The notes under the pieces were generated by a model. The model did no database searches. It was not told where the DNA came from and worked only from the letters and a program-made list of their open reading frames with translations. 64,000 bases of DNA from assembly GCA_020161065.1 (NCBI GenBank), contig JAIUPH010000007.1:454225-518224 (forward strand), in the 5' to 3' direction. This document shows positions 20,531 through 43,758 of the stretch, one piece after another (positions within the stretch are counted from its first letter, which is position 1; each line of letters begins with the position of its first letter). This DNA is from Pseudomonadota bacterium (lineage in GTDB: Bacteria; Pseudomonadota; Gammaproteobacteria; Burkholderiales; Burkholderiaceae_C). The position numbers and the translations under genes are program-made.

Positions 20531-20875
20531 TTATCGGCGGTTCGACGGGTTGCGGCCGACGTACACGACGAAGGGCGTGCCAGCGAAGCCGGCCGGTGCG
20601 ATCTGGCCGACATCGACGGACCTGCGGTCGAGCCCGTCGAAGGTCCACGAGAACTGCTTCGCGCCGCTGCGGAACGTCACGCTCTCGCCGTAGGCAACGT
20701 TGAGCCGGTCGGTGGACGCCAGGTCCACGACGCGCACTGGCGCGCCCTGCGCCGCCGGCTGCCCATAGATCGACTGGCCGTTCATGAACGTATTGCCGCT
20801 GGCGGCGAAGCCCGCGAGGGGAAGCACGGCCAGGGCAACGAGGGCAGCGGTGCGGAGTCGGCGAGTCGATTGCAT
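20531..20875 (-). CDS. czcE: CzcE-family periplasmic metal-binding protein
   Basis: 114 residues from the ATG at 20875 (AAGGA upstream). A signal peptide (ALVALAVLPLAGFAA) is followed by the CzcE-type body: YGQPAAQGAPVRVVDLAS, LNVAYGESVTFRSG and FSWTFDGLDRR, ending FVVYVGRNP. CzcE proteins of Cupriavidus bind copper or zinc in the periplasm and usually sit beside cadmium/zinc efflux genes, as here. The promoter (20945-21002) carries the AACATGAC dyad typical of CusR/CopR-type regulators, which predicts control by the two-component system at 26.8-28.9 kb. Confidence 0.7.
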   Translation of the reverse strand: MQSTRRLRTAALVALAVLPLAGFAASGNTFMNGQSIYGQPAAQGAPVRVVDLASTDRLNVAYGESVTFRSGAKQFSWTFDGLDRRSVDVGQIAPAGFAGTPFVVYVGRNPSNRR

Positions 20876-20944
20876 GTTCAGTCCTTTCGATGTGGGAGGG
20901 GTGCCGCCGGCGCGCGATCGCGCGCTGGGCCGGCATCGAAAGGA

Positions 20945-21002
20945 ACTGTAGAAACCGCTTTCCAACAGCCGCTGAACGGGAACATGACAGCCTCGTCATG
21001 TT
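20945..21002 (-). promoter_or_regulatory. CusR/CopR-type box and promoter of the czcE-like gene
   Basis: The dyad AACATGAC-N6-GTCATGTT lies at 20981-21002. Read on the minus strand, GTCAT is followed after 15 bases by CTGTTG (20963-20968) and after 12 more by TACAGT (20945-20950), a -10-like hexamer. The same layout occurs at 28939-28982 and 38353-38410. The dyad resembles the E. coli CusR box (AAAATGACAA-N2-TTGTCATTTT). Confidence 0.7.
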
Positions 21003-21017: not shown

Positions 21018-21461
21018 TCAGTGCGTACCGCGGATGTGGCGATGTGGCGACGCGGAAGTTGACTGAGCGGCGGCGGTGTCGAGCTCGTTCAGGATGCCGC
21101 ACTGCTCGATCGCATGCGGCGAGCCGCACCTCGCGCGCAGCGCCTTCAGATCCTTCTGCAGCGTCCGAAGTTCGCGGATGCGGTGGGTGACGTGCCCGAT
21201 GTGCTCGTCGAGCAGTGCGTTGACCTCGCCGCAGTCCTGCGAGGGCGCATCGCGCAGCCGCAGCAGCGTCCGGATCTCGTCCAGCGTCATGTCCAGGTTG
21301 CGGCAATGGCGGATGAACGCCAGCCGCTCGGCGTGGGCGGCCGTGTACACGCGGTAGTTGTTGTCTGCGCGCTGCGCCGCGGGGATCAGGCCCTCGCGCT
21401 CGTAGAAGCGGATGGTCTCGACCGCCGTGCCGGTCGATTCCGCCAGGTCGCCGATGCGCAT
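21018..21461 (-). CDS. cadR: CadR/PbrR-type MerR regulator (Cd/Pb/Zn)
   Basis: 147 residues. The N-terminal MerR helix-turn-helix and wing (MRIGDLAESTGTAVETIRFY, NNYRVY) and a long dimer helix are clear. Cys77, Cys112 and Cys121 correspond to the three-Cys metal site of CadR/PbrR proteins. The C-terminal tail is His-rich (SASPHRHIRGTH), as in CadR. It is divergent from cadA and should open the 19-bp-spaced promoter at 21490-21520 when cadmium or lead binds. Confidence 0.9.
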   Translation of the reverse strand: MRIGDLAESTGTAVETIRFYEREGLIPAAQRADNNYRVYTAAHAERLAFIRHCRNLDMTLDEIRTLLRLRDAPSQDCGEVNALLDEHIGHVTHRIRELRTLQKDLKALRARCGSPHAIEQCGILNELDTAAAQSTSASPHRHIRGTH

Positions 21462-21547: not shown

Positions 21548-23815
21548 GTGAGCACCACCCACACCCATGCCGATACCCACGCCTCGCCCGCCGCGGGCAG
21601 CAAGCCCGCCGATGCCTGTTGCGCTCACGATGGGCACGCCGCAGCGTCGGTGCCGGCGGGCACTGCCGCGCCTGCCGGCTGGGCCCGGTTCCGCGTGCCG
21701 ACGATGGACTGCGCCAGCGAGGAGTCGGAGATCCGGCGCGCGGTCGAGCACATCGCAGGCATCCGCGCGATGACCTTCCAGCTCGGTCAGCGCACGATGG
21801 CCATCGATGCGCCGCCTGCGTCCGTCGAACAGGCCGTTGCCGCGATCCGCAAGGCCGGCTTCGAACCGCAGCCGGTGCCGGAGAAGGCTGCCGAGTCGTC
21901 GAGCACGGGAGCCGGATCGGAGGACCATGATCACGGCGCCGGATCGGGAGGGGCGTGGCGGCTCGGCGGCGCCCTGCTGCTGGCTATCGGTGCTGAGGTG
22001 CTCGGCTTCTTCGCTCCGGACACGCAGATCTGGAAAGGCGCGGGTCTCGCCTTGGCGGCCGCGGCGATCTGGCTGGCCGGCTTCGACGTCTACAAGAAGG
22101 GTCTGACGGCGCTGCGCCATGGGCGGCTGAACATCAACGCCCTGATGACCGTGGCCGTCACAGGCGCGTTCGTGATCGGCCAGTGGCCCGAGGCGGCCAT
22201 GGTGATGGCGCTGTACGCCATCGCCGAAGCGATCGAGGCGCGTGCGGTCGATCGCGCCCGCAACGCGATCAAGGGCTTGCTGGCCATGGCGCCCGAGGAA
22301 GCCTCGGTGCGGCAGGCCGATGGCAGCTGGGCGAACGTGCCAGTCGCGTCGGTGGCGCTGGGCGCCGTCGCGCGGGTGCGGCCCGGCGAGCGCGTGCCGA
22401 TGGACGGCGTGGTATCCGCCGGGAGTTCGAGCATCAACCAGGCGCCGGTGACCGGCGAGAGCATCCCGGTGGACAAGGCGGTCGGTGACCCGGTGTTCGC
22501 CGGCACGATCAACGAGACCGGCACCTTCGAGTTCGAGGTCAACGCGCTGGCGTCGAACTCGACACTCGCGCGCATCATCCACGCCGTGGAGGAAGCGCAG
22601 GGCACGCGCGCGCCCACGCAGGGCTTCGTCGACCGCTTCGCCGCCGTGTACACGCCAGCGGTCTTCGTGATCGCGCTCGCCGTGGCGCTGCTCGGCCCCT
22701 GGCTGTTCAGCTGGACCTGGATGCAGGCGGTCTACAAGGCGCTGGTGCTGCTGGTCATCGCCTGCCCCTGCGCGCTGGTGATCTCGACCCCGGTGACGAT
22801 CGTCAGCGGTCTGGCGGCCGCGGCGCGGCGCGGCATTCTGATCAAGGGCGGGATCTACCTGGAGGAAGCACGCAAGCTCAAGGCCATCGCGCTGGACAAA
22901 ACCGGCACGATCACCGAGGGCAAACCCAAGCTGGTGGCCTGGGAGGTGCTCGGTCCGGGGACCGATGCTGCCGCCGCCGAGCACATCGCCGCGGCGCTGG
23001 CAGGCCACTCCGACCATCCGGTCTCGCGTGCCATCGCTGCGGGCCTGCGGCCCAACAGCGTCGAAGCGAAGGACTTCAAGGCCATCGCCGGTCGCGGTGT
23101 CCAAGCCGACATCGGCGGCACCGTCTATGTGCTGGGCAACCATCGGCTGATCGAGGAGCGTGGCCAATGCTCCCCGGGGCTCGAGGCCACCTTGCGCACG
23201 CACGAGGAAGCGGGCCGCACGGTCAGCCTGCTGGCCTCCGAGGCGGGCCCAGTCGCCTTGTTCGCCGTCGCCGACACGATCAAGTCGTCGTCGCGCGAAG
23301 CGGTGGCATCGCTCAAGGCACTCGGCATCACGCCGGTGATGCTGACCGGAGACAACCAGGCCACGGCCACGGCCATCGCGCACGAGGCCGGCATCGATGA
23401 GGCTCAGGGGAACCTGCTGCCCGAGGACAAGCTCGAAGCGATCAAGGCGCTGCAGGCAAAACATGGTCTGACCGCGATGACCGGCGATGGGATCAATGAC
23501 GCGCCGGCGCTGGCCCAGGCCGACATCGGCGTGGCGATGGGCGCAGCCGGCACCGACACCGCGATGGAAGCGGCGGACGTGGTGGTGATGAACGACGATC
23601 TGCGCCGCATCGCCGAAACCGTGCGGCTGTCGCGGTCCACGCATGCGGTGCTGTGGCAGAACATCACGCTGGCGCTGGGCATCAAGGCGGTGTTCCTGGT
23701 CATGGCGGTGTTCGGCAACGCCTCGATGTGGATGGCGGTGTTCGCCGACATGGGGGCGAGCCTGCTGGTCGTGGTGAACGGCCTGCGGCTGTTGAGAAAA
23801 GGGGAGGGTAAGTAG
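21548..23815 (+). CDS. cadA: Cd/Zn/Pb-exporting P1B-type ATPase
   Basis: 755 residues from a GTG at 21548 (AAGGA upstream). The order is: a His-rich start, an HMA domain with the MDCASEE motif (about residue 56), eight predicted membrane segments, TGES in the actuator domain, the membrane CPC (Cys406-Pro-Cys408), DKTGT with phospho-acceptor Asp450, an HP motif and GDGINDAP. The MDCxxEE-type HMA and CPC site are those of divalent-cation pumps (CadA/ZntA), not copper pumps. It exports cytoplasmic Cd, Zn or Pb to the periplasm. It starts an operon continuing to 26336. Confidence 0.92.
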   Translation: MSTTHTHADTHASPAAGSKPADACCAHDGHAAASVPAGTAAPAGWARFRVPTMDCASEESEIRRAVEHIAGIRAMTFQLGQRTMAIDAPPASVEQAVAAIRKAGFEPQPVPEKAAESSSTGAGSEDHDHGAGSGGAWRLGGALLLAIGAEVLGFFAPDTQIWKGAGLALAAAAIWLAGFDVYKKGLTALRHGRLNINALMTVAVTGAFVIGQWPEAAMVMALYAIAEAIEARAVDRARNAIKGLLAMAPEEASVRQADGSWANVPVASVALGAVARVRPGERVPMDGVVSAGSSSINQAPVTGESIPVDKAVGDPVFAGTINETGTFEFEVNALASNSTLARIIHAVEEAQGTRAPTQGFVDRFAAVYTPAVFVIALAVALLGPWLFSWTWMQAVYKALVLLVIACPCALVISTPVTIVSGLAAAARRGILIKGGIYLEEARKLKAIALDKTGTITEGKPKLVAWEVLGPGTDAAAAEHIAAALAGHSDHPVSRAIAAGLRPNSVEAKDFKAIAGRGVQADIGGTVYVLGNHRLIEERGQCSPGLEATLRTHEEAGRTVSLLASEAGPVALFAVADTIKSSSREAVASLKALGITPVMLTGDNQATATAIAHEAGIDEAQGNLLPEDKLEAIKALQAKHGLTAMTGDGINDAPALAQADIGVAMGAAGTDTAMEAADVVVMNDDLRRIAETVRLSRSTHAVLWQNITLALGIKAVFLVMAVFGNASMWMAVFADMGASLLVVVNGLRLLRKGEGK

Positions 23816-26809: not shown

Positions 26810-28210
26810 TCAATGCCCTGGAGAGCCGGTTCTTGCTGTGGAGGAGGTGGCCGGCGCCGACAAGCCGGTCTCGTCGGTCCCCGCGTCCCGCAAGCTCATG
26901 CCGATCGCCGAAGTCCCGCCTGACGAATTTGCCAAGGGCCGCCCTCCGTGCATGCGCGCGATGGCCGCAACGATGGACAGTCCGAGCCCGTGGTTGCGAT
27001 CGGCGTCGCTGCGGGAGGCATCGCCGCGGTAGAAGCGGTCGAACAGGCGCGGAAGATCGTCGGGCCCGATGGTGACGCCGCGATTCACCACCTTCAACCG
27101 CACCTCGCCGGCCGCTTCAGCAGTGATCTCCACGCGCACGGTCGACCCGCGCTGCGCATAGCGCGTGGCGTTGCCGATCAGATTGGACAGGGCGCGCTGC
27201 AGCAGCGGGGTGTCGAAGCTGCCCTCGGCATCGCCGACGATCTCCAGCGCCAGGCCGGCATCGACAAGTGCCGCCTCATGGTAGTTGCACACCTGCCGCG
27301 CCAACGCGGCGAGGCTCGGAGTCGGGACGCGTCGAGCTGAGGCGCCGCGATCGGCCTGCGACAGGAACAGCATGTCGTGCACGATGCTGGCGACGCGCTG
27401 CAGTTCCTCCAGGTTCGAGCCGAGCACCTCGCGCAGTTCGTCAGCGTCACGGGCTTTGCGCAATGCGAGCTCGGTGCTGCCGATCAGCGTCGCCAGCGGC
27501 GTGCACAGTTCGTGGGCCACGTCTGCGTTGAAGCCTTCCAGCTGAGCGTAGGCCAGCTCCAGCCGGCCGAGCAACTCGTTGAACTGCGCGATCAGCGGCT
27601 CGAGTTCCTCCGGCTGCGCGGAGCCGTCCAGCCGGCGATGCAGGGTATCGGCCGCGAGTTGCCGGGTCTGGTTCACCAGATCGCGCAGCGGGCGCAGGCC
27701 AAGGCGCACGAGCACGAAGCCGCCGGCCGACACGAGCAGCGCGCCGGCGAGAGCGGCCACCGCGAGCGTGAGTCCGATGCGGCGCAGCAGCGCGGCATCT
27801 TCCCGGATGTCCAGTGCCAGGACGGCATCGAGCGATCCTTGCTCGGGCGCCGGCGCAGGCAGTGCGAACCGTGCGACGCGCACGTCGCCCGTCGGTGTTG
27901 GCGAGGAGCGCCGATAGAACTCCGATCCGTCGGCGGCGCGCGTCAGCGCCAAAGCCATGTCGGGATGGCCGATGAAGAAGTCGTCGAGCTTGTGCTTCAG
28001 CGTCGCCACGTCACCGTCGTGCGACGACTCCGCGAGCAGGTGGCGAAGCTGCACCTGCTTCTGCACCAGTTCCTCCGACTGGCGGGCCTGGAAGCCCAGA
28101 TGCGTGGCGCCGTAGACCGCCGCACACACCACGACAAGGCCGGCCAGGCTCTGCAGGGCCAGCCAGTACGACAGCCGGCGGCCGAGCGACCCGATGCGGC
28201 TGCGGCTCAT
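26810..28210 (-). CDS. Heavy-metal sensor histidine kinase (CusS/CopS type)
   Basis: 466 residues; the start at 28210 overlaps the regulator stop. The layout is a membrane segment at about 15-40, a periplasmic sensor of about 120 residues, a second membrane segment (about 165-185), HAMP, an H box ([12 protein letters not shown], with Cys where Arg is usual), an N box ([11 protein letters not shown]), a G box ([16 protein letters not shown]) and an F box (RFYRG). This is the CusS/CopS/IrlS heavy-metal sensor family. The N-box Asn is followed by Ala-Thr, as in that family. The signal is probably periplasmic copper or silver. Confidence 0.85.
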
Positions 28211-28893
28211 TCGTCGCGTGACTCCATCACGTAGCCCATGCCGCGCACAGTGTGCAGCAAGGTGCGCTCGAAGGGCGCATCGAGCTTGTTGCGCAGACGG
28301 CGAATGGCGACGTCGATGACGTTCGTCGCGCTGTCGAAGTTCATGTCCCACACCTGCTCGGCGATCTCGGTGCGTGACAGCACCTCGCCTTGCCGGCGCA
28401 CGAACAGCGCGAGCAGGCCGAACTCTTGCGCAGTGAGCTCGAGTCGGCGGCCGGCGCGAACCGCCTTGCGGCGGATCAGGTCGATCTCGAGATCCGCCAG
28501 CCCGAGCACGGTCGCGCCGTCGTTGGCGCGGGCAGGGCGTGCGCGGCGCAGCAGCACCTGGATCCGCGCCAGCAGTTCAGAGAAGGCGAAGGGCTTGACG
28601 AGGTAGTCGTCAGCGCCGCTCTGCAGCCCGCGCACCCGGTCCTCGACACGCACACGGGCGGTCAGCATCAGCACCGGCGTCTGCTTGCTCTGGCGCAACG
28701 CCGCGAGCAGGCCCAGGCCATCGATGCCCGGCAGCATGCCGTCGAGCACGATCAGTTCGTAGTCGGACTCCATCGCGAGGTGCAGGCCATCGACACCGTT
28801 GTGGGCGAGGTCCACCACGAAGCCTTCCTCGGTCAGTCCCTTGCGCAGGTACTCGGCCAGCTTGACCTCGTCGTCGATCACCAGCAGCTTCAT
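28207..28893 (-). CDS. OmpR-family response regulator (CusR/CopR type)
   Basis: 228 residues from the ATG at 28893. The receiver (LLVIDDE ... IVLDGMLPG, phospho-acceptor Asp near residue 51, and K in LVKPF) is followed by a winged-helix output domain ([45 protein letters not shown]). The pattern fits CusR/CopR/IrlR. It is divergent from the DUF4148 gene. The box between them matches the sites before the czcE-like gene and the small gene at 38 kb, so it probably controls all three and itself. Confidence 0.88.
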
Positions 28894-28927: not shown

Positions 28928-28982
28928 CTGTCCAATCTGTCATTGGTTCGACCCGTTTCTGTTGGTGCGCGGTTTCTAGATT
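28928..28982 (+). promoter_or_regulatory. CusR/CopR-type site and promoter of the DUF4148 gene
   Basis: CTGTC repeats at 28928 and 28937, the second continuing as CTGTCAT. From GTCAT (28939-28943) it is 15 bases to CTGTTG (28959-28964) and 12 more to TAGATT (28977-28982). The spacer GCGGTTTC before TA is identical to that of the czcE promoter. It is divergent from the regulator gene, so autoregulation is likely. It ends 70 bases before the DUF4148 ATG. Confidence 0.65.
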
Positions 28983-29051: not shown

Positions 29052-29390
29052 ATGCGCTTCGACAAGTTCGCCATCGCCACCGTCGCCGCCATCTCCACCC
29101 TCTCGTTGCCCGGTCTGTCGCAGGCCGCGTCGACCTATCACGCCGCCGGCGGCGAAGCGGGGTTCACGTACCACCCGGATCACGCCACGAACGGCAAGGC
29201 ACGCGCCGAGGTGCTGGCCGAACTCGAGGCCGCGCGCAAGGACGGCACGCTGGCGCTGATCCAGCGCGGTGCGCCCCTGCCGATCAAGAACGCCGGCCCG
29301 GCCAAGACGCGCCAACAGGTCATCGACGAGATGCGCAACGAGTCGCCCGAACAGCGTCGCGCGCGCATGGAACTGACGGCCGGCGGCTGA
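29052..29390 (+). CDS. DUF4148 exported protein
   Basis: 112 residues with a clear signal peptide (IATVAAISTLSLPGLSQAA), AGGAAAGGA-type Shine-Dalgarno upstream, and the family pattern KARAEVLAELEAARKDGTL followed by KTRQQVIDEM. DUF4148 proteins are small periplasmic proteins of Burkholderiales, often several per genome, with unknown role. The first mature residues include AASTYHAAGGEAGFTYHPDH, with three His that could bind metal. The promoter suggests control by the divergent two-component system. Confidence 0.75.
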   Translation: MRFDKFAIATVAAISTLSLPGLSQAASTYHAAGGEAGFTYHPDHATNGKARAEVLAELEAARKDGTLALIQRGAPLPIKNAGPAKTRQQVIDEMRNESPEQRRARMELTAGG

Positions 29391-31348: not shown

Positions 31349-31687
31349 TCAGTGGATGGGCGTCGCGCTGACCACATCGATGACGGTGATCCATCCGGCG
31401 ATCGCCTGGCCAGTGCGGGCGGCGTCGGTGAGCGCTGCCGAGAGGGCCTCGACCTCGCTGTCCTCGCACAGCAGCTCCAGCTTGTATTCGTTGACGACTT
31501 CGTCGCCGAGGTCCATCGCATAGTGCTTCTCGTCGCTGTCCAGCGGCAGCAGCGAGCCCTTCACGATGTAGACGGCGAGGTTGTGGCGGCGGCCTCCGCG
31601 GGCGCCGCCCCACGCCGGGCTGTCCTTCAGTGCCGCGATCACGTCGGCGATGCGGCTGCGATGCACGTAGGCCTTGATTTCCTTCAT
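31349..31687 (-). CDS. PII-like signalling protein linked to RND metal efflux (PII-NG type)
   Basis: 112 residues with the PII fold pattern: MKEIKAYVHRSRIADVIAAL at the start and a C-terminal GWITVIDV strand. The classic GlnB uridylylation site (Tyr51 in the T loop) is not present in the expected form; the loop reads VYIVKGSLLPLD. A group of PII paralogs without this site is known to be encoded in operons with heavy-metal RND pumps. The start overlaps the czcA stop. It may couple pump activity to a small molecule or metal. Confidence 0.75.
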   Translation of the reverse strand: MKEIKAYVHRSRIADVIAALKDSPAWGGARGGRRHNLAVYIVKGSLLPLDSDEKHYAMDLGDEVVNEYKLELLCEDSEVEALSAALTDAARTGQAIAGWITVIDVVSATPIH

Positions 31688-34600
31688 GGCGTCTCCTGGG
31701 TGGGTTGCGGTAGCGCGACGCCTTGCGGTTGTTCGGCGTCTTCTTCGGCCGCGTCACGCGCGCGCTGTTTGGCTTCGGCGCGCGATTCCGACCATTCGTA
31801 GATCAGCGGCAGCAGCAGCAACGTCAGCAGCGTCGAGGTGATCAAGCCGCCGATCACCACGGTGGCCAGCGGGCGCTGGGTCTCGGCCCCGACACCTGTG
31901 GAAATCAGCATCGGCACGAGGCCGAGGATCGCCACCGAGGCCGTCATCAGCACCGGCCGCAGGCGCAGCGCGGCGCCCTGGCGCACGGCATCGCGTATCG
32001 ACAAGCCGTGCTTGCGCTGGTCGTTGAGGAACGAGACCAGCACGATGCCGTTCAGCATCGCGACCCCGAACACGGCGATGAAGCCGATCGCCGACGGAAC
32101 CGACAGGTACTGCCCGGTGATGAACAGCCCGACGATCCCGCCGATGATCGCGAACGGGACGTTCGCAATGATCAGCGTGGCGTGGCGTACCGAGTTGAAC
32201 GCCGTGTACAGCAGGATGAAGATCAGGCCGATCGTGAGCGGGACGATGATGCCCAGTCGTTCCATCGCACGCTGCTGGTTTTCGAAGGCGCCTCCCCATT
32301 CCACCCAGTAGCCCGTGGGCATCTTGACTTTCGCCTGGATCGCGGCGTTCGCGTCCTTGACGAAGCTGTCGACGTCGCGGCCCTGCACGTCCATCTGCAG
32401 CACGGCGTAGCGCTGCAAGGCCTCGCGCCGGACGAAGGTGTAGCCCTCGGCAAGTTCGATCTTCGCCACCTGGGCGAAGGGCACGATCGCGCCTTCGGAC
32501 GTGCGGATGGGAATGGCGGCGATGGCCGATGGGCTGTTGCGGAACTCCTCGGGCAGCCGCACCGAGATATCGAAGCGGCGTGTGCCTTCGATCAGCGTCG
32601 AGACAGTCTCGCCGCCGATGCCGGCCTGGACGATGGCCAGGATGTCGTCGGCGTTCAGGCCGTAGCGGGCCGCCGCCTGGCGATCCACCTTGATGACCAT
32701 CTGCGGCTTGCCCTTGTTGGCTTCCGCCGACAGGTCGGCCACGCCGGGAACGCCACCGACCACGCCCTTGAGCTGCGCGGACAGCTCCTCGAGCTTGTCC
32801 AAATCCTCGCCGTAGACCTTCAGCGCCAGCGTTGCGCGCACGCCGGAGATCAGTTCCTCCACGCGCATCTGGATCGGCTGCGTGGCGCCGAAGACAGCGG
32901 TCTGCACCTCGCCTTCGAGGAATTCCTGCATCTCCCGGCCGAGAGCGGCATACGACTGCTTCGTCGGCCACTCGTCCTTGGGCTTCATGTCGAGCAGGAC
33001 TTCCATGTAGTTCACATCGGCCGTCTCGCCCTTTTCGGCGCGGCCGATGGTGGCCAGCACCGAGTTCACCTGCGGGTACTTCTGGCGCAGGGCGGCGTCC
33101 ATCACATTCGCCACGCGGACCGATTCCTCGAGCGATGTCGAGGGAATGCCGACGACGCGGAACATGATCGCGTCCTCCTGCAGCGTCGGCATGAACTCCT
33201 TGCCGAGCAGAGGGAAGAGGGCGAGGGCGCCGACGAGCAGTGCGATCGCCGCGCCGATGACGGTCTTCTTGCGGTCGAGCGCCCAGTCCAGCATCGGCAG
33301 GTAGAGCTTCTTCGCGCCGCGCACCAGCCAGGTGTCCTTCTCCTCCTTGGGCTTGAGGATCAGCGCCGCCAGCACCGGCACCAGCGTCAGCGACAGCAGC
33401 AGCGAGCCGGCCATCGCGAACGTGATGGTCAGCGCCATCGGTTTGAACAGCTTGCCTTCCAGCCCCGTCAGCGAGAACAGCGGCAGGAACACGACGATGA
33501 TGATCATGATCGCGAAGGCGATCGGGTTCGCCACTTCGCGCGCCGCTTCGAGCACCACGTGGGTCCGGTTGATCGGCCGGCCCGACTCGCGAGCATGCGC
33601 GAGCAGGCGGAAGGCGTTCTCCACCATCACCACCGCGCCGTCGACCATCATCCCGATGCCGATCGCCAGTCCGGCCAGCGACATCAGGTTGGCCGACATG
33701 CCGAAGCGCTGCATGCAGATGAACGCGAACAGCATCGCCAGCGGCAGCGTGACGATCACGACGATGGCGGAGCGAAACTCGCCGAGGAACAGGAACAGGA
33801 TCACCGCGACCAGGATCGAGCCTTCGATGAGGGCGTTGGTCGAGGTCGCCAGCGCCTTGTCGACGATCTCGGTGCGGTCGTAGGCCGCCTTCAGCTCGAT
33901 GCCCTTGGGCAGCGCGGCTTGCGCGATGGCCAGCTTCTCCTTGACCGCCTTCACCACGGAGGCCGAGTTCTCGTGGATGCGCGCCAGCGCGATGCCGAGC
34001 ACGGTCTCCTGGCCGTTGCGCGTGACTGCGCCGAAGCGCACGGCCGGCGCCTCCTTGACGTCGGCGATGTCGCGCACGTAGACCGGCGAGCCCTTGCGCT
34101 CGGCGACGACGATGGTGCCGATGTCGGCGGCGTTGCTGACCAGCCCCAGGCCGCGCACGAGGTACTGTTCGACGCCGATGTTCAGGAACTGCCCGCCGAC
34201 CTGCTTGTTGTTGGCCGCCAGTCGCTCCATCACCTCCTTGAACGACAGCCCGTATTTGACCAGTCGCCGCGGGTCGATCTGCACCTGGTACTGCTTTTCG
34301 TGGCCTCCCCAGGTCGTCACGTCATCGACACCCGCGGCCGTGCGCAGGATGAGCCGCACCGTCCAGTCCTGCAGCGTGCGCAAGTCCATCGCGCTGAGCT
34401 TCTTGTCGGCGTCTTCGATCGTGTACCAGAACACCTGGCCCAGGCCCGAGCTGTTGGGGCCGAGTTCGGGCTCGCCGTAGCCGGCGGGCAAGCGGCCTTT
34501 CACCTCCTGCAGCTTTTCACCCACCAAGCGGCGCGCGAAGTAGATGTCGACGCTGTCCTTGAAGTACACGCCGACGTAGGACAGGCCGAACAGCGAGACC

Positions 34601-34851
34601 GAGCGGACGACTTCCACGTCCGCCAGGCCCGCCATCGCGGCTTCGATCGGAACGGTGAGCAGCTTTTCGATGTCTTCGGCGGCGACGCCGGGGGACTCGG
34701 TGTAGATGTTCACCTGCGCCGGCGTCACGTCGGGGAAGGCGTCCACCGGCACCTGCCGGTAGGCCATGGCCCCGAGGCCGATGAGCACGGCGAAGGCCAC
34801 CAGCACCAGCACTTTGTAGCGCAGGCTGGCATCAACGATTGCATTGAGCAT
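31684..34851 (-). CDS. czcA: CzcA-type heavy-metal RND efflux pump
   Basis: 1055 residues, the usual RND length, with an N-terminal membrane helix, two large periplasmic loops and 12 membrane segments. The fourth membrane helix carries LAIGIGMMVDGAVVMVEN. The Asp of DGA and the Glu of EN, needed for proton flow, are present, but the first Asp of the DFGxxxDGA signature of Zn/Co/Cd pumps is replaced by Gly. It thus falls outside the classical CzcA signature, and its metal range is uncertain. It forms the inner-membrane part of CzcCBA, proton-driven export from periplasm or cytoplasm to outside. Confidence 0.88.
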   Translation of the reverse strand: MLNAIVDASLRYKVLVLVAFAVLIGLGAMAYRQVPVDAFPDVTPAQVNIYTESPGVAAEDIEKLLTVPIEAAMAGLADVEVVRSVSLFGLSYVGVYFKDSVDIYFARRLVGEKLQEVKGRLPAGYGEPELGPNSSGLGQVFWYTIEDADKKLSAMDLRTLQDWTVRLILRTAAGVDDVTTWGGHEKQYQVQIDPRRLVKYGLSFKEVMERLAANNKQVGGQFLNIGVEQYLVRGLGLVSNAADIGTIVVAERKGSPVYVRDIADVKEAPAVRFGAVTRNGQETVLGIALARIHENSASVVKAVKEKLAIAQAALPKGIELKAAYDRTEIVDKALATSTNALIEGSILVAVILFLFLGEFRSAIVVIVTLPLAMLFAFICMQRFGMSANLMSLAGLAIGIGMMVDGAVVMVENAFRLLAHARESGRPINRTHVVLEAAREVANPIAFAIMIIIVVFLPLFSLTGLEGKLFKPMALTITFAMAGSLLLSLTLVPVLAALILKPKEEKDTWLVRGAKKLYLPMLDWALDRKKTVIGAAIALLVGALALFPLLGKEFMPTLQEDAIMFRVVGIPSTSLEESVRVANVMDAALRQKYPQVNSVLATIGRAEKGETADVNYMEVLLDMKPKDEWPTKQSYAALGREMQEFLEGEVQTAVFGATQPIQMRVEELISGVRATLALKVYGEDLDKLEELSAQLKGVVGGVPGVADLSAEANKGKPQMVIKVDRQAAARYGLNADDILAIVQAGIGGETVSTLIEGTRRFDISVRLPEEFRNSPSAIAAIPIRTSEGAIVPFAQVAKIELAEGYTFVRREALQRYAVLQMDVQGRDVDSFVKDANAAIQAKVKMPTGYWVEWGGAFENQQRAMERLGIIVPLTIGLIFILLYTAFNSVRHATLIIANVPFAIIGGIVGLFITGQYLSVPSAIGFIAVFGVAMLNGIVLVSFLNDQRKHGLSIRDAVRQGAALRLRPVLMTASVAILGLVPMLISTGVGAETQRPLATVVIGGLITSTLLTLLLLPLIYEWSESRAEAKQRARDAAEEDAEQPQGVALPQPTQETP

Positions 34852-34866: not shown

Positions 34867-36099
34867 TCAATGCCCGTGGCCGAGCTGGGATTTCAGCTTG
34901 CGTGCCTTGAGCGCATAGGCTCCGGAGGTGACCACCTGGTCGCCGGCCTTGATGCCCGACTTGAGCAGCGTGCGGCCGCCCACCCGTTCACCCGGCTCGA
35001 CCTGGCGCGCTTCGTACGCGCCTTGCTCGTAGACGAATACGGTCGGCTGGCCCTCGAGCAGCACGATGGCCGCGTCGGGCAAGCTGATGACATCACGCTT
35101 GTCGTCGCCCGCCTCGATGGTCGCGGTGGCGAACATCTCGGGCTTCAGGCGGCCGTCCGCGTTGGCGACCTCGATGCGGGCCGCGATCGTGCGGGTGTCC
35201 TTGTCGAGCATCGCGCCGATGTGGCCGACCCGCCCGCTGAAGGTCTCCCCGGGGTAGGCCGGCACCGTCACCTTGGCGTTGGCCCCGATGCGGACCTTGG
35301 CCAGCGCAGCCTCGGGCAGGTCGGCCTGGATCCAGACACGGCTCAGGTCGGCGATGGTGAACATCGATTCGCTCGGGCTGCCCAGTTCGCCCAGCGTCAC
35401 TTTCTTCTCGATCACGGTACCGGCAAACGGCGCCGTGACGGCAAAGCCGGCGACGCCGCTGCCGCTGGCCGCTTGCGCGCCGCCGAGCAGGCGCAGCCGA
35501 TCGGCGGCGTTGCGCACAGCGGCGGTCGCCTTGTCGCGGTCGGCCTGGGCGCGCAGGAAGTCCTTGCGCGGGATGATTTCCTCCGCGTTCAGCGACTCGG
35601 CGCGCTTGAAGTCGGCATCGGCGATCCGCAGTTCGGCCTGGGCCTGGGTCCAGGTGGCATGAGCTTCAGCAACATCGACGCTGTCGAGCGTGGCCAGTGT
35701 CTGCCCGGCGCGCACGCGGTCACCCAGCTTCGCCGGGGCCGAAGTGATGCGGCCTTCGATTCGGGGTGCGACACGGGCCAGACGGTCCTGGTCGGGCCGG
35801 ATCGTTGCGGTGACCTGAAGCGTCTCGCCAAGTGCTTCCGCCTTGATCGCTTCGACCTTCACGCCGGCGCGTTCCGCCTCCTCGGCGGTGAGGGTCAGTT
35901 CCTCTGAGCCTTCCTTGTGCTCGTCCTTCTTTTCGCCGGCATGCTCGGCATGTTTGTCGCCTTCAGCGGCGTGCTCGTCCTTGGCTCCGCCCTTGCCGCA
36001 GGCGGCAAGCGAGACAGCGACGGCCAGTGCCAGGGCGACTTTGGTCGCCAGCCCGGCCAGGCGCTTCGGACGCCCTGTGTCGTCTTGCAGCGTGATCAT
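34867..36099 (-). CDS. czcB: CzcB-type membrane-fusion protein (lipoprotein)
   Basis: 410 residues. A lipobox (VSLAACG) anchors it in the inner membrane. The mature N-terminus is rich in His, Lys and Glu (DEHAAEGDKHAEHAGEKKDEH), a likely metal-binding region. Lipoyl, alpha-hairpin and beta-barrel domains follow (RIEGRITSAPAKLGDRVRAG; ADFKRAESLNAEEIIPRKDF; FAGTVIEKKVTLGE). It bridges CzcA and CzcC. It overlaps czcC by four bases and lies 15 bases before czcA. Confidence 0.9.
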   Translation of the reverse strand: MITLQDDTGRPKRLAGLATKVALALAVAVSLAACGKGGAKDEHAAEGDKHAEHAGEKKDEHKEGSEELTLTAEEAERAGVKVEAIKAEALGETLQVTATIRPDQDRLARVAPRIEGRITSAPAKLGDRVRAGQTLATLDSVDVAEAHATWTQAQAELRIADADFKRAESLNAEEIIPRKDFLRAQADRDKATAAVRNAADRLRLLGGAQAASGSGVAGFAVTAPFAGTVIEKKVTLGELGSPSESMFTIADLSRVWIQADLPEAALAKVRIGANAKVTVPAYPGETFSGRVGHIGAMLDKDTRTIAARIEVANADGRLKPEMFATATIEAGDDKRDVISLPDAAIVLLEGQPTVFVYEQGAYEARQVEPGERVGGRTLLKSGIKAGDQVVTSGAYALKARKLKSQLGHGH

Positions 36100-37370
36100 T
36101 GCGAGGTTCCTTCCCGCGACCAGCCGGCCGCGTTTTCGAGTTCGATTCGGGTGGTGTGGAATTCGGCCAGCGCGTCGTTCAGATCGCGTTCGGCGTCCAG
36201 GGCCTGGCGATTCACGAGCAGTTGATCGAGCAGGCCGATCTGGCCGGCCTGCCGCGACTTCGCGGCGAGTTGCTGGTTGTCGGCCGAGGCGGCGACCATC
36301 GCGCGCTGCAGGCGCGCCACGCGCTCGCGCTGGCTGTCGAGCCGGCTCCAGAGGCGCCGCACCTGGGCCTGGCCGTCGCGCGTCGCGGCGGCACGTTCGA
36401 TTTCAGCCTGCGTTGCATCGCTCATGGCCTGGCCGATGGCCGCGTCGTTGCGCTTGAAGAGCGGCAGCGGCACGGAAAGGGTCAGCGTGGTGACGCGCTC
36501 GCGACCGTCGGCCGGACCCTCGCGGCCGACGTTCAGCCCGACCGTCACGTCCGGGTAGCGGCTGGCCCGCTCGACGCCGACCCGTGCGCGGGCGGCGTCT
36601 TCGCGTGCAGCCAGCGCGCGCTGCCTGGGCAAGGCCTGCGCCGATGCGAGCAGTTGATCGAGGCCATAGGGCAGTGGCGCGCCATTCGGCACGCCGAGGT
36701 CGCCGATCACCTCCGGCACGGCGGACGGCGGCAACTGCAGGGCTGTGGCGAGGTCGGCCTTGGTGTCCTGCAGATGCTCTTGCGACACCGCCAGCGCATT
36801 GCGGGCGCGTTCGGCCTCGATCAGGGCGACGTTGGCATCCAGGCGGGTGTCCTCGCCCGCGCTGCGCCGCCTGGCGACGGCCTGCGCAGTGCCGTCAAAC
36901 AACTCGACCGAACGCTGTTCGAGCCGCACCCGCCGCTGCGCGGCAAGCACGGCGTGGAATCGCAGCGACGCTTCGGCGCGTGCCTGGCGCCGCGCATCTT
37001 CGATCTCGGCGCGCAAGGCCTCCAGCGATGCGGACGCGGCCTCGCGGCGGCGCGCCTGCTGGCCACCGATCTCGATCGGCTGCGCGATGCCCAGGCCCCA
37101 CTCGCGGGCGTTGCCATCGGGAGTCGCGGCGCTGCGTCGCGTGCGCTCCACGCTGAGCTCGGGGTTGTTGAAGAGCAGTGACGCGGCTTCGCGGCGGGAG
37201 CCTTCGGCGGCCACCAACTGGGCCTCGCGCGCACGCACGGTGGGGCTGGCGGCTTCTGCCAGCCGCAGCGCCTCCGCAAGCGTCAGCGGGCCCGAGCCCG
37301 CGGTCTGCGCACTCGCGGGAACGGTCGAGGCAGCCAGCACGAAGGCCAGCGCCAGGAGTGGGAATCGCAT
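36096..37370 (-). CDS. czcC: CzcC-type outer-membrane factor
   Basis: 424 residues with a Sec signal peptide (LALAFVLAASTVPASA) and the two-repeat coiled-coil pattern of TolC-family proteins (LTLAEALRLAEAASPTVRAREAQ; ARARVGVERASRYPDVTVGL; LLDQLLVNRQALDAERDLNDA). It forms the exit duct for the Czc pump. It is first of the three pump genes, with czcI 61 bases upstream on the same strand. Confidence 0.9.
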   Translation of the reverse strand: MRFPLLALAFVLAASTVPASAQTAGSGPLTLAEALRLAEAASPTVRAREAQLVAAEGSRREAASLLFNNPELSVERTRRSAATPDGNAREWGLGIAQPIEIGGQQARRREAASASLEALRAEIEDARRQARAEASLRFHAVLAAQRRVRLEQRSVELFDGTAQAVARRRSAGEDTRLDANVALIEAERARNALAVSQEHLQDTKADLATALQLPPSAVPEVIGDLGVPNGAPLPYGLDQLLASAQALPRQRALAAREDAARARVGVERASRYPDVTVGLNVGREGPADGRERVTTLTLSVPLPLFKRNDAAIGQAMSDATQAEIERAAATRDGQAQVRRLWSRLDSQRERVARLQRAMVAASADNQQLAAKSRQAGQIGLLDQLLVNRQALDAERDLNDALAEFHTTRIELENAAGWSREGTSQ

Positions 37371-37431: not shown

Positions 37432-37842
37432 TCAGTCCGCGAGCGAGACCATCACCACGTCGCCGCCGGATCGCGCGGCAGGGATGGAGTGGGCTCGATC
37501 CGGGCGCAGGGGGCTGGCCGGAATGTGGGAGTCGTAGCGGGGTTCTGGCTGCCGCATGGCGTCGCCATGCGGCAGAGCGTCGACAGCGGAGGTTGGCGCG
37601 GGCATGAACGCGGAACAGCCCAGATGGCAGGTTTCGCAGTCCGTGTGATATGCGCCCGCAGTGTCGTCAGCATCTTGGGCGGCCGAGGCGATCTCGCCAT
37701 CGGCCTGATGCTTGTGTTCATGGTGGCCGAAGTGCTTCTTGGTCGAGACACCGGTTTCGTGCGCGCAATACGGTGCCGCCGCGCCCCAGACCAACTGAAA
37801 CGGCACGACGAACAACAGAAAAGCGAACACCCAACGACGCAT
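37432..37842 (-). CDS. czcI: CzcI-like small exported Cys/His-rich protein
   Basis: 136 residues. A signal peptide (FAFLLFVVPFQLVWG) is followed by a Cys/His-rich part: YCAHETG, HFGHHEHKHQ, and HTDCETCHLGCSAF. This is the pattern of CzcI proteins, which sit directly before czcC and are thought to modulate efflux or bind metal in the periplasm. The start at 37842 has a weak ribosome site. It leads the czcICBA operon. Confidence 0.75.
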   Translation of the reverse strand: MRRWVFAFLLFVVPFQLVWGAAAPYCAHETGVSTKKHFGHHEHKHQADGEIASAAQDADDTAGAYHTDCETCHLGCSAFMPAPTSAVDALPHGDAMRQPEPRYDSHIPASPLRPDRAHSIPAARSGGDVVMVSLAD

Positions 37843-37990
37843 GATTGAGATTCTAGACTGGCAGTGTCTGGCCCGGCCCACGGCACTGGCGGGTCAAACC
37901 GCGACATTTTCCGATTCAGCATGGGCTGCTGCTTCGAGCTTGGTTGATTCGAGCGCTCCGAAACCGGTCCGGCCGGGGAGCGGCCCTGGT

Positions 37991-38278
37991 TCAAAGCCGC
38001 TTGGCGAACGCCATCGGGATGCCAGTCAACGCCCGATCGGACGCTGATGTCCGGTCGGACTGCGTCGAAACGCCGTGACGTGTTGCCATGGCCATGGGGA
38101 CTCCCGAGAGCGTCGTCGGCCGCGTCAGGCCGTCGGAAGGCGTGCGGGTGTCGAGCCGTTTGGCGACGTTCATCGAGACGCCGGTGAACGGCACATCCGA
38201 CGCCGCAGGCGCTGCGTGCGCGTAGGTGCCCAGCGTCAGCGTCAGGGCAAGGGTCAGAATAAGGGCAGTGAATTGCAT
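37991..38278 (-). CDS. Small exported protein with triple short repeat, 95 aa
   Basis: Start at 38278. A signal peptide (TALILTLALTLTLGTYAHA) is followed by three related segments: FTGVSMNVAKRLDTRT, LSGVPMAMATRH and LTGIPMAFAKRL. Each has a (T/S)G(V/I)xM core followed by a basic end. No Cys. The promoter at 38353-38410 carries a perfect CusR/CopR-like palindrome, so it is probably copper-induced. I know no family. The repeated Gly-x-x-Met could bind Cu(I). Confidence 0.55.
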   Translation of the reverse strand: MQFTALILTLALTLTLGTYAHAAPAASDVPFTGVSMNVAKRLDTRTPSDGLTRPTTLSGVPMAMATRHGVSTQSDRTSASDRALTGIPMAFAKRL

Positions 38279-38352: not shown

Positions 38353-38410
38353 AATCTACGGAGCCGCAATCAACAGAACTCTGTCGGGAACATGACAGGC
38401 CTGTCATCTT
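38353..38410 (-). promoter_or_regulatory. CusR/CopR-type box with 16-bp perfect palindrome
   Basis: ATGACAGGCCTGTCAT (38392-38407) is a perfect palindrome within a 22-bp box at 38389-38410. On the minus strand GTCAT is followed after 15 bases by CTGTTG (38371-38376) and after 12 by TAGATT (38353-38358). Layout and the adjacent GTTCCCG match the czcE-like promoter. It lies 111-132 bases upstream of the 95-aa gene, almost the same distance as at czcE. Confidence 0.75.
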
Positions 38411-38525: not shown

Positions 38526-38966
38526 ATGGGTTTGTTGATCAGAACGCTTCTGATTTGGTTGCTGGTGTTGGCGGTTCCTGCGCAAGGGGCTGCTGCCGCG
38601 ACCATGGCGTTTTGCGGCCCGAATCACCATGGTGGCGAGTCGACGTCGACGCGCTCCGAACTGAGTTCGAACGCTTCCGAGCATTCGCATCATGGCGATG
38701 CTGCGCCTGCGCATGAGGTCGATGCAGACGCAGCGGCCGATGCGGCCATCGCTGACGATGCGTCGATGATGGTGAAGGCTGGCCATGCGGCCAAGCAGAA
38801 GTGCAGCGCCTGCGCCTCCTGCTGCTCGCTGGGCGCCATCCTGACCACGGTGCCGGTCATTCCGGTCACCGACTCGGCTCCGACGGTGTTCGCCACCGTC
38901 GTGCCGACCGTCGACGCATTCGCCGCCGACGGACCTGACCGTCCTCCTCGAAACGTCCTCGCGTAA
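38526..38966 (+). CDS. Small exported Cys/His-rich protein upstream of the copper module
   Basis: 146 residues. A signal peptide (TLLIWLLVLAVPAQGAAA) precedes FCGPNHHGGE, SEHSHHGD and KQKCSACASCCSLGA, a strong soft-metal-binding composition. Its place (just before an outer-membrane factor operon), size and Cys/His content are those of CzcI-type and similar proteins, three more of which occur in this window (37432, 48245, 52508). A metal-binding or pump-modulating role is likely, but the sequences are too divergent to call one family by eye. Confidence 0.6.
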   Translation: MGLLIRTLLIWLLVLAVPAQGAAAATMAFCGPNHHGGESTSTRSELSSNASEHSHHGDAAPAHEVDADAAADAAIADDASMMVKAGHAAKQKCSACASCCSLGAILTTVPVIPVTDSAPTVFATVVPTVDAFAADGPDRPPRNVLA

Positions 38967-39076: not shown

Positions 39077-39469
39077 ATGGTCCCAATCCCCACGCTCCGA
39101 CGCAGGCCGCGCGCCCTGCCGAGCCTGCTGTTGACGGCGCTCCTGGCCGCGCAGGCACAGGCGCAGCCCACCACCACTACCACCGTCCGCCCTGATCCGC
39201 TGGACCCGAAGGCCCAAGTGCCCGCGATGCGCTACGAGTCGTCGCTCGGGCAGTCTCGTCGCATCGGCGATGACAAGCCCGTGGCCTGGCGCGAAGCCAA
39301 CGAGGCCGTCGCTCGCATCGGCGGCTGGCGGGTTTATGCCCGCGAGGCACAGCAACCCGATGCCCCTCCGACGACACTGCCGGCGGTAGCTCCGGCGCAG
39401 TCTCCGGCGTCGACGCCGGCGGCCACCACGAAGCCGACGCCTGCCGGTCATGGTGGTCACAAGCCATGA
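39077..39469 (+). CDS. Exported protein with His-Gly tail, 130 aa
   Basis: A signal peptide (LPSLLLTALLAAQAQA) is followed by a short conserved-looking domain (VPAMRYESSLGQSRRIGDDKPVAWREANEAVARIGGWRVYAREA), a Pro/Thr/Ala-rich linker and the tail GHGGHKP. Proteins of this type precede copper outer-membrane-factor genes in Burkholderiales. The next two gene products also end in Gly-His. Function unknown; periplasmic copper handling is inferred. It overlaps the next gene (ATGA). Confidence 0.6.
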   Translation: MVPIPTLRRRPRALPSLLLTALLAAQAQAQPTTTTTVRPDPLDPKAQVPAMRYESSLGQSRRIGDDKPVAWREANEAVARIGGWRVYAREAQQPDAPPTTLPAVAPAQSPASTPAATTKPTPAGHGGHKP

Positions 39470-40923
39470 AGGGCGGCGCAATGAACGACGACATTCACGG
39501 CCCTTCGAAGCCGAGACGCGAACGCCGCCCGCTCCGCTTGTGGACACTGCTGGCCTCTGCCGCCCTGCTGGGCGGCTGCGCCAGTTTCAGCCCGGACGGT
39601 GGATTCGGCGCGGTGGAACAGACCGCCAAAGAACGGATCGGCAAGGACCTGCGCTGGGCGCGTACCGATGCCGACCGGGACAGCATCGACAAGCGTGTCG
39701 CGGAGTTGCTGGCCAAGCCTCTCACGGTGGATGACGCCGTGCAGGTCGCCTTGCTCAACAACCGCGGGCTGCAGGCCGACTTTCAGGAACTCGGCATCAC
39801 CGAGGCCGAGGTCGTGCAGGCCGGACGCCTGCCGAACCCGGGCTTCAGCTTCGGGCGCATGAGCCGGGGTGACGAACGCGAGATCGAGCGTGGGCTCCAC
39901 TTCAACCTCGCGCGCCTGGTCGCGATGCCGCTCATCGGAAAGATGGAAGCGCGGCGTTTCGAGCAGACGAAGGCCCGCGTGGCGATGAGCGTGCTGGCAC
40001 TGGCCGCCGACACGCGCAAGGCCTACTTCACCGCCTTGGCGGCGGAGGAGTCCGTTCGCTACATGCGGCAGGTGAAGCAGGCGGCCGATGCGAGTGCCGA
40101 ACTGGCCCGGCGCATGGAGCAGGTCGGCAACTTCAACAAGCTGCAGCGCGCGCGGGAGCAGGCGTTCTACGCCAACGCCGCCTTGCGCTTGGCCCAGGCG
40201 GAGCAGACGCAGCGGTCGACCCGCGAACGGCTGGTGCGCTTGCTCGGCGTCTGGGGGCCGCAGACCCAGTTCGCCTTGCCCGAGCGCCTGCCGGACGTGC
40301 CGACCTCGCCAGTCGAACTGCAGGACATCGAGCAGGTGGCATTGGCGCAGCGTCTGGACGTGCAGGGCGCCAAACTGGCGGCGCAGCAGACGGCAAGCAA
40401 CCTCGGCCTGACGAAGACGACCCGTTTCGTCAACGTGCTGGAACTCGGCTTGCTGCGCAACAGCTCGAACGAGGCACCCACGCAGCGCGGCTGGGAGATT
40501 GGCCTCGAGTTGCCGCTGTTCGATTGGGGCGGCGCGCGCGTCGCGCGTGCCGAGGCGGTGTACATGCAGACGCTGCACCGCGCCGCGGAGACCGCGATCA
40601 ACGCGCGGTCCGAGGTGCGCGAGGCCTACATGGGTTATCGCTCGGCCTACGACATCGCGCGTCACCACCGCGACGAGATCGTGCCGCTGAACCAGCGCAT
40701 CGCCGAAGAGAACGTGCTTCGCTACAACGGCATGTTGATCGGCGTCTTCGAACTGCTCGCCGATGCCCGCACGCAGATCGCCAGCGTCAACGCCTCCATC
40801 GAGGCGCTGCGTGATTTCTGGATCGCGCAGGCCGACCTCGACATGGCCCTGATCGGTAAGCCCAGCCTGAACGCCGCAGCGGGCCCCGCGATGGCGGCCG
40901 AAGCCGCCGGCGCAGGTCATTGA
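39466..40923 (+). CDS. TolC-family outer-membrane lipoprotein of the copper module
   Basis: 485 residues; a second start at 39481 (MNDDIHG) is possible. After a basic N-terminus a lipobox (AALLGGCASF) is present. The mature part shows TolC-type repeats (LTVDDAVQVALLNNRGLQADFQELGI; LVRLLGVWGPQ; GLELPLFDWGGARVARAEA). It should form an outer-membrane duct. No RND pump genes follow; instead the oxidase and cupredoxin do, so it may serve the Cus or Czc pumps or another exporter. It ends in Gly-Ala-Gly-His. Confidence 0.8.
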   Translation: MKGGAMNDDIHGPSKPRRERRPLRLWTLLASAALLGGCASFSPDGGFGAVEQTAKERIGKDLRWARTDADRDSIDKRVAELLAKPLTVDDAVQVALLNNRGLQADFQELGITEAEVVQAGRLPNPGFSFGRMSRGDEREIERGLHFNLARLVAMPLIGKMEARRFEQTKARVAMSVLALAADTRKAYFTALAAEESVRYMRQVKQAADASAELARRMEQVGNFNKLQRAREQAFYANAALRLAQAEQTQRSTRERLVRLLGVWGPQTQFALPERLPDVPTSPVELQDIEQVALAQRLDVQGAKLAAQQTASNLGLTKTTRFVNVLELGLLRNSSNEAPTQRGWEIGLELPLFDWGGARVARAEAVYMQTLHRAAETAINARSEVREAYMGYRSAYDIARHHRDEIVPLNQRIAEENVLRYNGMLIGVFELLADARTQIASVNASIEALRDFWIAQADLDMALIGKPSLNAAAGPAMAAEAAGAGH

Positions 40924-42365: not shown

Positions 42366-42401
42366 CCACTGATAAGCATCCCCCACTCGAAAGGACATCC
42401 C

Positions 42402-42914
42402 ATGCACCACAGCAAGCGTCAACTGCTCCTCGCCATCCCTGCCACCCTGCTCGGTGCCTCCGGGCTGGTGCGGGCGCACGGCGACGAAGACCACCCCAAG
42501 AAAGCCGGTCCGGTCAAGAAGGAGCAGAAGGACTGGGGCATCGCCGGCGATGCCAAAAGCGCCAAGCGCAGCATCGAGGTCGGCATGGCCGACAACATGC
42601 GATTCACTCCGGACAAGATCGCCGTGCGACAGGGCGAGACGGTGAAGTTCGTTGCGCGCAACACCGGCAAGGTGATGCACGAGTTCGTCATCGGCACCAA
42701 GGCCGAGAACGGCAAACACGCTGAGATGATGGTGAAGTTCCCGACCATGGAACACGACGAGCCGTACATGGCCCACGTGCCGCCCGGCAAGACCGGCGAG
42801 ATCGTCTGGACCTTCAACCGCGCCGGCGAATTCGAGTTCGCCTGCCTGATCGCCGGTCACTACCAGGCCGGGATGGTGGGATCGATCACGGTGGCGGCGG
42901 CGGGCAAGGCATGA
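42402..42914 (+). CDS. Periplasmic cupredoxin (plastocyanin-like)
   Basis: 170 residues. A signal peptide and a His/Lys-rich linker (AHGDEDHPKKAGPVKKEQKD) precede a cupredoxin domain with type-1 copper ligands His93 (VMHEFVIG), Cys148, His153 and Met158 (CLIAGHYQAGM), spaced C-x4-H-x4-M. It should bind one copper and pass electrons or copper between the oxidase next door and other partners. It overlaps the DUF411 gene. Confidence 0.88.
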   Translation: MHHSKRQLLLAIPATLLGASGLVRAHGDEDHPKKAGPVKKEQKDWGIAGDAKSAKRSIEVGMADNMRFTPDKIAVRQGETVKFVARNTGKVMHEFVIGTKAENGKHAEMMVKFPTMEHDEPYMAHVPPGKTGEIVWTFNRAGEFEFACLIAGHYQAGMVGSITVAAAGKA

Positions 42915-43393: not shown

Positions 43394-43752
43394 ACCACCA
43401 ACGATTCTTCTTCCGCGCGACGGGCCTCGCGCTCGCGTTTTCGGCCTCGGCTGCGTTGCCGGCTTGGGCAGCAGGTGAACCCGGCGCGCCCGGCACGGTG
43501 ATCGCGCAAGCCTCGACCACCGACATGACCGACGGCGAGGTGCGCAAGGTGAACAAGGAAGGCGGCACCCTGACCCTCAAGCACGGCGACATCAAGAACC
43601 TGGACATGCCGGGGATGACGATGGTGTTCGCGGTCAAGGACAAGGCGATGCTCGACAAGGTGAAGGCCGGCGACAAGATCAAGTTCAAGGCCATCAACGA
43701 CGCGGGCAAGTTCACCGTCACCGAGGTGCAGGTGGTGCAGGTGGTGCAGTAG
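43390..43752 (+). CDS. cusF: CusF-like copper-binding protein with Met in place of Trp
   Basis: 120 residues from the ATG at 43390. After a signal peptide, the CusF-type OB fold shows DGEVRKVNKEGGTLTLKHGDI and LDMPGMTMVF. The Cu(I) ligands align as His65, Met76 and Met78, with spacing identical to E. coli CusF His36/Met47/Met49. The Trp44 position is Met73. That could give a fourth sulfur ligand in place of the cation-pi cap. The end carries three near-identical GTGCAG repeats (VQVVQVVQ). Confidence 0.85.
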   Translation: MNHQRFFFRATGLALAFSASAALPAWAAGEPGAPGTVIAQASTTDMTDGEVRKVNKEGGTLTLKHGDIKNLDMPGMTMVFAVKDKAMLDKVKAGDKIKFKAINDAGKFTVTEVQVVQVVQ

Positions 43753-43758
43753 TCCGCC

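Follow-up and report, generated by a model that had tools for sequence, protein, structure and literature searches.

Three Promoters of a Bacterial Metal-Efflux Island Share a Phased Half-Site Array: Putative Operators of a Heavy-Metal Response Regulator

Introduction

What kind of promoter is shared by three genes for small exported proteins in one bacterial metal-efflux island, and which regulator and which metal would it serve? The question arises in a 64-kb stretch of DNA (the whole of which is referred to here as the window), where an initial annotation had placed a single spaced pattern, GTCAT-N15-CTGTTG-N12-TASAKT, before a czcE-like gene (promoter A), a DUF4148 gene (promoter B), and a gene for a 95-aa protein (promoter C) and had assigned all three to a CusR/CopR-type regulon. 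We propose, with a probability of roughly 70%, that promoters A–C are putative class II operators for a response regulator of the TIGR01387 family, in which the promoter-proximal half-site replaces the −35 element. If this is true, three poorly understood groups of small exported proteins (DUF4148, CzcE-like, and the 95-aa family) would be tied to an RND metal-efflux operon as a proposed regulon.

Results

Layout and Rarity of the Three Promoters

The pattern is present at 20945-20988 (minus strand, A), 28939-28982 (plus strand, B), and 38353-38396 (minus strand, C), and the spacings of 15 and 12 bp are the same at all three (Table 1). These three matches in the window compare with none in 100 dinucleotide shuffles of it. 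A search of the whole genome (6,291,011 bases) with GTCAT-N15-CTGTTG-N12-TANANT, allowing up to two mismatches, returned the three known sites and no unrelated matches, and the reversed pattern returned nothing at the same tolerance over the same bases. Within the window, a relaxed 19-position consensus with up to four mismatches again found promoters A, B, and C only. These searches support the earlier view of a single promoter class that is local to this island. The additional shared bases listed at that time are also present, with GTTCCCG in A and C (it is absent from B) and GCGGTTTC in A and B. Shared bases of this sort are the one feature favoring chance, or recent copying of one promoter, as the source of the three-way match. 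We regard that explanation as highly improbable given the empty shuffles, the lack of further matches in the genome, and the retention of the elements in other genera while most of the bases between them vary.

The initial annotation caught only part of the arrangement. GTCAT forms the right half of an inverted-repeat box of 16 bp, ATGAC-N6-GTCAT, whose left half had been overlooked together with an element at +11. The palindrome core TGAC-N6-GTCA is perfect at A (20985-20998) and C (38393-38406) and reads TGTC-N6-GTCA at B. Measured against the 16-bp consensus ATKACA-N4-TGTMAT, C, A, and B have zero, one, and three mismatches, respectively, and those in B all fall in the distal half, which is described as the less conserved half of the AgrR-type box (PMC7380067).

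The make-up of these sequences appears to bear out the earlier suggestion of an activator-type promoter without a normal −35. Each has a recognizable −10, and at spacings of 15–19 bp the best −35 candidate in A, B, or C matches only two of the six TTGACA positions, on which ground a normal −35 promoter was rejected. MerR-type promoters place a dyad between the −35 and −10 elements in a spacer of 19–20 bp. A promoter of this type, for CadR or CueR, was likewise rejected, since no −35 at 15–19 bp exceeds two of six positions and the box is located further upstream than a −35 would be.

Table 1. Promoter elements and genes of the proposed regulon and its surroundings (positions in the window)
Feature	Position	Strand	Sequence or evidence
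Promoter A, inverted-repeat box ATGAC-N6-GTCAT	20984..20999	-	TGACGAGGCTGTCA, 0 mismatches
Promoter A, +11 half-site	20973..20977	-	GTTCA
Promoter A, +22 half-site	20962..20968	-	CTGTTGG
Promoter A, −10	20945..20950	-	TACAGT
Promoter B, inverted-repeat box, weak left half	28928..28943	+	CTGTCC-N4-TGTCAT
Promoter B, +11 half-site	28950..28954	+	GACCC
Promoter B, +22 half-site	28959..28965	+	CTGTTGG
Promoter B, −10	28977..28982	+	TAGATT
Promoter C, perfect box	38392..38407	-	ATGACAGGCCTGTCAT
Promoter C, +11 half-site	38381..38385	-	GACAG
Promoter C, +22 half-site	38370..38376	-	CTGTTGA
Promoter C, −10	38353..38358	-	TAGATT
CzcE-family protein, 114 aa, behind promoter A	20531..20875	-	PF16986, E=3.2e-19
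CadR/PbrR-type regulator, metal context near promoter A	21018..21461	-	TIGR02047, 184.8 bits (cut-off 151.45)
Heavy-metal P-type ATPase near promoter A	21548..23815	+	TIGR01512, 492.1 (cut-off 313.5); TIGR01511, 406.7 (cut-off 397)
Cognate sensor histidine kinase, start placed by eye	26810..28210	-	TIGR01386, 346.4 bits (cut-off 292.55)
Response regulator (TIGR01387 family), proposed activator of A–C	28207..28893	-	307.6 bits (cut-off 279.2)
DUF4148 small exported protein, behind promoter B	29052..29390	+	PF13663, E=6.9e-9
CusA/CzcA-family RND pump	31684..34851	-	TIGR00914, 1115 bits (cut-off 701)
Periplasmic adaptor (RND_mfp/HlyD type), RND operon	34867..36099	-	
TolC-type outer-membrane channel, RND operon	36096..37370	-	PF02321
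CzcI-like protein, second gene behind promoter C, start codon unsettled	37432..37881	-	NF045614, 99.0 bits (cut-off 100)
95-aa exported protein with three imperfect repeats, encoded directly behind promoter C	37991..38278	-	

Half-Site Phasing across Genomes

Allowing one mismatch, the originally reported layout occurs in 22 of 200 genomes of the family (its own included), compared with 2 of 200 for a reversed control. By eye, 20 of the 29 places found in the 200 genomes look like real promoters, the three described here among them, and 9 look like chance. The extended pattern was also searched in genome_contigs, a set holding one genome each of 84,980 species, and gave 53 matches in 52 stretches. 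Relatives of the same three gene families follow 47 of these matches (26 DUF4148, 17 CzcE-like, and 4 relatives of the 95-aa protein); the other six are four Firmicutes loci plus L075, located at a contig end, and L061, where an outer-membrane-factor-like gene follows. Judging by name, we take 47 of the 52 stretches to be betaproteobacterial, one to be placed only within Proteobacteria, and four to be chance-like Firmicutes loci. Eleven contigs, many of them from close relatives, each carry at least two matches by hand count. Dropping the four Firmicutes loci as chance leaves 49 matches, which reduce to 21 non-redundant sites. Column 12, which lies 11 bp after the G of GTCAT and was left unspecified in the search pattern, is G in 21 of these 21 sites, and the next base is T or A in every one.

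A test independent of CTGTTG used 52 loci (434,497 bases) chosen without reference to that motif: 30 by similarity to the DUF4148 protein (the window's own locus included), 20 by similarity to the regulator, and two from E. coli K-12 for the known promoters they contain. Scanning for TKAC-N6-GTMAT with at most one mismatch yielded 342 boxes. TANANT lies exactly 33 bp past GTCAT in 34 of them, one being promoter B, whereas 37 other spacings gave 28 TANANT in total over the same 342 boxes, five of these at 32 bp. By hand count, the exact combination of box and TANANT at 33 bp is present in 17 of the 30 DUF4148-chosen loci and 10 of the 20 regulator-chosen loci; the remaining 13 and 10, respectively, contain no box with an exact TANANT at that distance.

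With one further Cupriavidus locus added, 35 sites were available, of which 25 were kept at less than 70% identity. G12 is found in 24 of these 25, with G(T/A) at +11 in 21, and G23 is found in 23, with G(T/A) at +22 in 22; at any other column, G(T/A) occurs in at most eight. Binomial values for these columns overstate the evidence because the sites are related by descent, and some of the 25 may be chance matches. An exact CTGTTG occurs in just 2 of the 25, one of them promoter B itself, so the motif does not hold up as the separate, invariant element for which it had been taken. The elements stand at +0, +11, and +22, with one helical turn between neighbors. CTGTTG occupies the last of these positions, where its best reading is a degenerate third half-site that keeps the 11-bp phase.

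Over the 25 sites the consensus at +22 is TTGTCGG, in which C25 is kept in 15 sites and the GG at columns 26 and 27 in 17 and 18, respectively. Because this GG is not predicted by a GTCAT half-site, the +22 position could serve another contact. Pursued further, this would make CTGTTG a separate element, either an unusual RNA polymerase contact or the site of a second protein, and the regulator would bind ATGAC-N6-GTCAT only. G27 is present in 17 of the 21 CTGTTG-type sites, and footprints of about one box are known in the family, for example those of P. putida CzcR3, which span only ~25 bp at two of the three promoters (PMC8469834). We nevertheless consider a separate element unlikely, since G(T/A) at +22 continues the 11-bp phase of the box and the +11 repeat exactly and since C25 is so often retained. 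Two relatives of the 95-aa locus (L149 and L150) point the same way: they read GTCAT, GTCAG, and GTCGG at the three positions, the second and third side by side at +11 and +22, before a −10 with one mismatch.

Genes behind the Promoters

All three genes had been described as encoding small exported proteins, and by eye all three N-termini are indeed signal-peptide-like. The 95-aa protein has no family match in Pfam or NCBIfam. Its repeats, of about 12 residues, follow (F/L)(T/S)G(V/I)xMxxAxR... and are kept in four relatives; within the family, the protein was found in 3 of 200 genomes, its own included. Assignment of promoter C to the 95-aa gene stands insofar as this is the first gene behind it, but the gene is probably not the sole target. 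Five genes follow on the same strand, the minus strand from the 95-aa gene to the RND gene shows no terminator-like site, and promoter C probably drives an operon of the 95-aa, CzcI-like, TolC, HlyD, and RND genes. A gene divergent from promoter C (38526-38966, plus strand) gives weak matches to the CopL family (26.8 bits, cut-off 40) and the CzcI family (26.4 bits, cut-off 100) and may share the C box.

The czcE-type leaders have features of their own. The sequence (C)TTCGAT(G) lies directly past the −10 in promoter A and in 11 of 17 czcE-type promoters, with a match, CATCGAAAGG, at the ribosome-binding site. Inverted-repeat leaders are found in the window (20877-20944, minus strand) and at L033, L039–L041, L047, L049, L050, L052, L058, L071, and L073. 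The likely transcript start of the czcE type is inside the first arm of the inverted repeat, which could mask the ribosome-binding site or else function at the DNA level. Measured with mononucleotide shuffles, the folding of leader A has a z of −3.3 for a segment starting where the −10 ends but −0.7 for one starting six bases later; the leaders of B and C give −0.4.

Regulator and Metal Context

Promoter B had been described as divergent from CusRS-type genes. It is divergent from the regulator gene, as stated, but the regulator itself falls outside the CusR/SilR/CopR group. The protein scores above the curated cut-off of the heavy-metal family TIGR01387 (cztR_silR_copR), whereas the CusR model PRK09836 gives 283.8 bits against a cut-off of 420. 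In a tree of 26 rows, drawn with midpoint rooting, the regulator belongs to a seven-row group with support of 99/98, and CusR, SilR, and the C. metallidurans CopR-type proteins form a separate group (98/96). C. metallidurans CzcR (pMOL30), 58.5% identical to the window's regulator, branches outside both groups. Within the seven-row group, three loci (L114, L115, and L141) lie close to cadR together with heavy-metal ATPase and RND pump genes, L116 is near an ATPase and CzcE, L142 is near a zinc permease and RND genes, and L125 is near DUF4148 and RND genes. Among relatives, the same promoter type precedes RND clusters or DUF4148 genes adjoining the regulator gene and also czcE genes. For the regulator gene itself, no promoter of the A–C layout was found.

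Could the signal still be copper or silver, as a CusR/CopR-type assignment implies? E. coli cusC, silC, and silE share this box and spacing, as does C. metallidurans copA2 with a looser −10; a copper block occupies about 39–48 kb of the window, and the ATPase near promoter A passes the cut-off of the copper subfamily, albeit narrowly and with a higher score for the cadmium subfamily. Copper as the inducer is nonetheless doubtful because the regulator lies outside the CusR/CopR group and most of its close relatives are encoded near cadR or near genes for heavy-metal ATPases, CzcE, a zinc permease, or RND pumps. The CadR/PbrR-type regulator, the ATPase that scores best as a cadmium pump, and the CzcI-like gene behind promoter C also argue against it. 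The box cannot name the metal, since the recognition helices are almost identical across the 26 tree rows and one palindrome can serve CusR, CopR, and CzcR, as reported in PMC11195947. On this genomic context, a Zn/Cd/Pb signal seems likelier than copper.

The copper block (39466-47906) is separate and encodes an outer-membrane channel, a multicopper oxidase, a cupredoxin, a DUF411 protein, a CueR-type regulator (above its cut-off), and a copper-type ATPase. A second CusA/CzcA-family RND pump, presumably CusA-type by motif, is encoded at 56059-59214. Neither the block nor this pump has a promoter of the A–C layout at up to four mismatches.

The genome encodes a second TIGR01387 regulator (C33:336628-337293, L127), which scores 314.8 bits compared with 307.1 for the window's regulator and groups, with modest support (87/81), with Thauera regulators beside cadR and DUF4148. 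It is conceivable that this protein controls A and C, leaving only B to the regulator in the window: both proteins pass the family cut-off with nearly the same recognition helix, and GTTCCCG sets A and C apart from B. We judge this division improbable. The second gene lies at a distance of about 146 kb, and its 3.7-kb locus lacks a TGAC-N6-GTCA box (up to one mismatch) with a fitting −10. Among relatives of the window's regulator, moreover, one cluster (L141) carries boxes at both czcE and the RND operon.

Discussion

Our proposal is a two-component metal-efflux regulon whose promoters, A, B, and C, are of the sigma-70 type and depend on an activator. Its response regulator, encoded beside promoter B, would bind its half-site array along one face of the DNA, the array consisting of the inverted pair ATGAC...GTCAT and, at 11 and 22 bp downstream of it, two direct half-sites. 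The last half-site (CTGTTG here, TGTCGG in the wider set) would lie at about −30 to −25, adjoining the usual place of the −35. There the bound regulator could touch RNA polymerase and replace the absent −35 element, in the manner of PhoB. A comparable role is described for AgrR (PMC7380067). The CzcE-like gene need not belong to this regulon, since zinc induction of czcE in C. metallidurans is reported without CzcR (PMC10127602).

More tentatively, and at odds somewhat short of even, the same geometry may extend across the regulator family. Many CusR-, SilR-, HprR-, CopR-, and CzcR-like activators would then rely on an array with an 11-bp phase, made up of one inverted half-site and as many as three direct ones. 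The −10 would stand a constant 33 bp past the palindrome, the proximal half-site would replace the −35, and CTGTTG would be one betaproteobacterial version of that half-site. Weighing against this rule, 10 of the 20 regulator-chosen loci have no exact site. In the literature searched, figures and most subscription papers excepted, no printed statement of a 33-bp/11-bp rule was found, which is weak evidence of its absence. If true, a rigid box-to-promoter geometry from E. coli cus/sil to Betaproteobacteria would provide a sharper rule for the targets and start sites of metal-sensing two-component systems, and both could be predicted from sequence.

Several known promoters share this geometry in large part. 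The box recurs at E. coli cusC and at the plasmid promoters silC and silE, together with GTCA(C/T) at +11 and a −10 exactly 33 bp past GTCAT. Unlike A–C, they read AAATCAG or CAAACAG at +22, with no G(T/A). Their regulators CusR and SilR sense copper and silver. Of the two +22 sequences of these enterobacterial cus/sil promoters (L004 and L113), CAAACAG is the reverse complement of CTGTTTG, which is near the CTGTTGG of A and B. E. coli hiuH, a target of HprR, has the box, the +11 repeat, and a looser −10 (TATCCT) in the same place, with C at column 23; C. metallidurans copA2 has the box, the +11 repeat, and a looser −10 (TACTCT) in the same place, with GT at +22. A box before C. metallidurans czcE is correctly spaced and has G at +11 and +22, but T or A does not come next. 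At the pMOL30 copA-copR locus of that species (L118), the only two box matches lie inside the regulator gene.

The half-sites of phoA, a PhoB promoter, are 11 bp apart like those of A–C, but no inverted repeat was seen upstream, the regulator is a different one, and the −10 lies 15 bp past the proximal G compared with 16 in A–C. In the pho box, the proximal half-site replaces the −35. A PhoB-type pho box (CTGTCAT repeats) was rejected as an identity for A–C, which match its phasing but not its half-site letters and have their −10 at a distance greater by 1 bp.

The CzcR and CopR operators of P. putida consist of TTAC-N6-GTAAT or TGACA-N4-TGTCA boxes, and although other footprints cover about 25 bp, some (35–47 bp) exceed one box; they serve different genes in a different host (PMC8469834, PMC12428095). 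The CopR footprints, of 27–47 bp, are described as having several half-sites within them (PMC12428095).

The closest described relatives are the AgrR box promoters of C. metallidurans (prsQ2, copA2, and agrR), which have the same kind of box with in-phase direct repeats (PMC7380067). AgrR binding is demonstrated in that report, and a change of GT in the proximal repeat largely affected activation; at A–C, two direct half-sites (+11 and +22) are present, and we infer binding. The agrR box is centered at −43.5 and the others slightly further upstream (PMC7380067), whereas the center estimated for A–C, about −53.5, would lie about one turn upstream. Promoters A–C thus refine a described promoter class, and the mechanism that we propose for them is not new.
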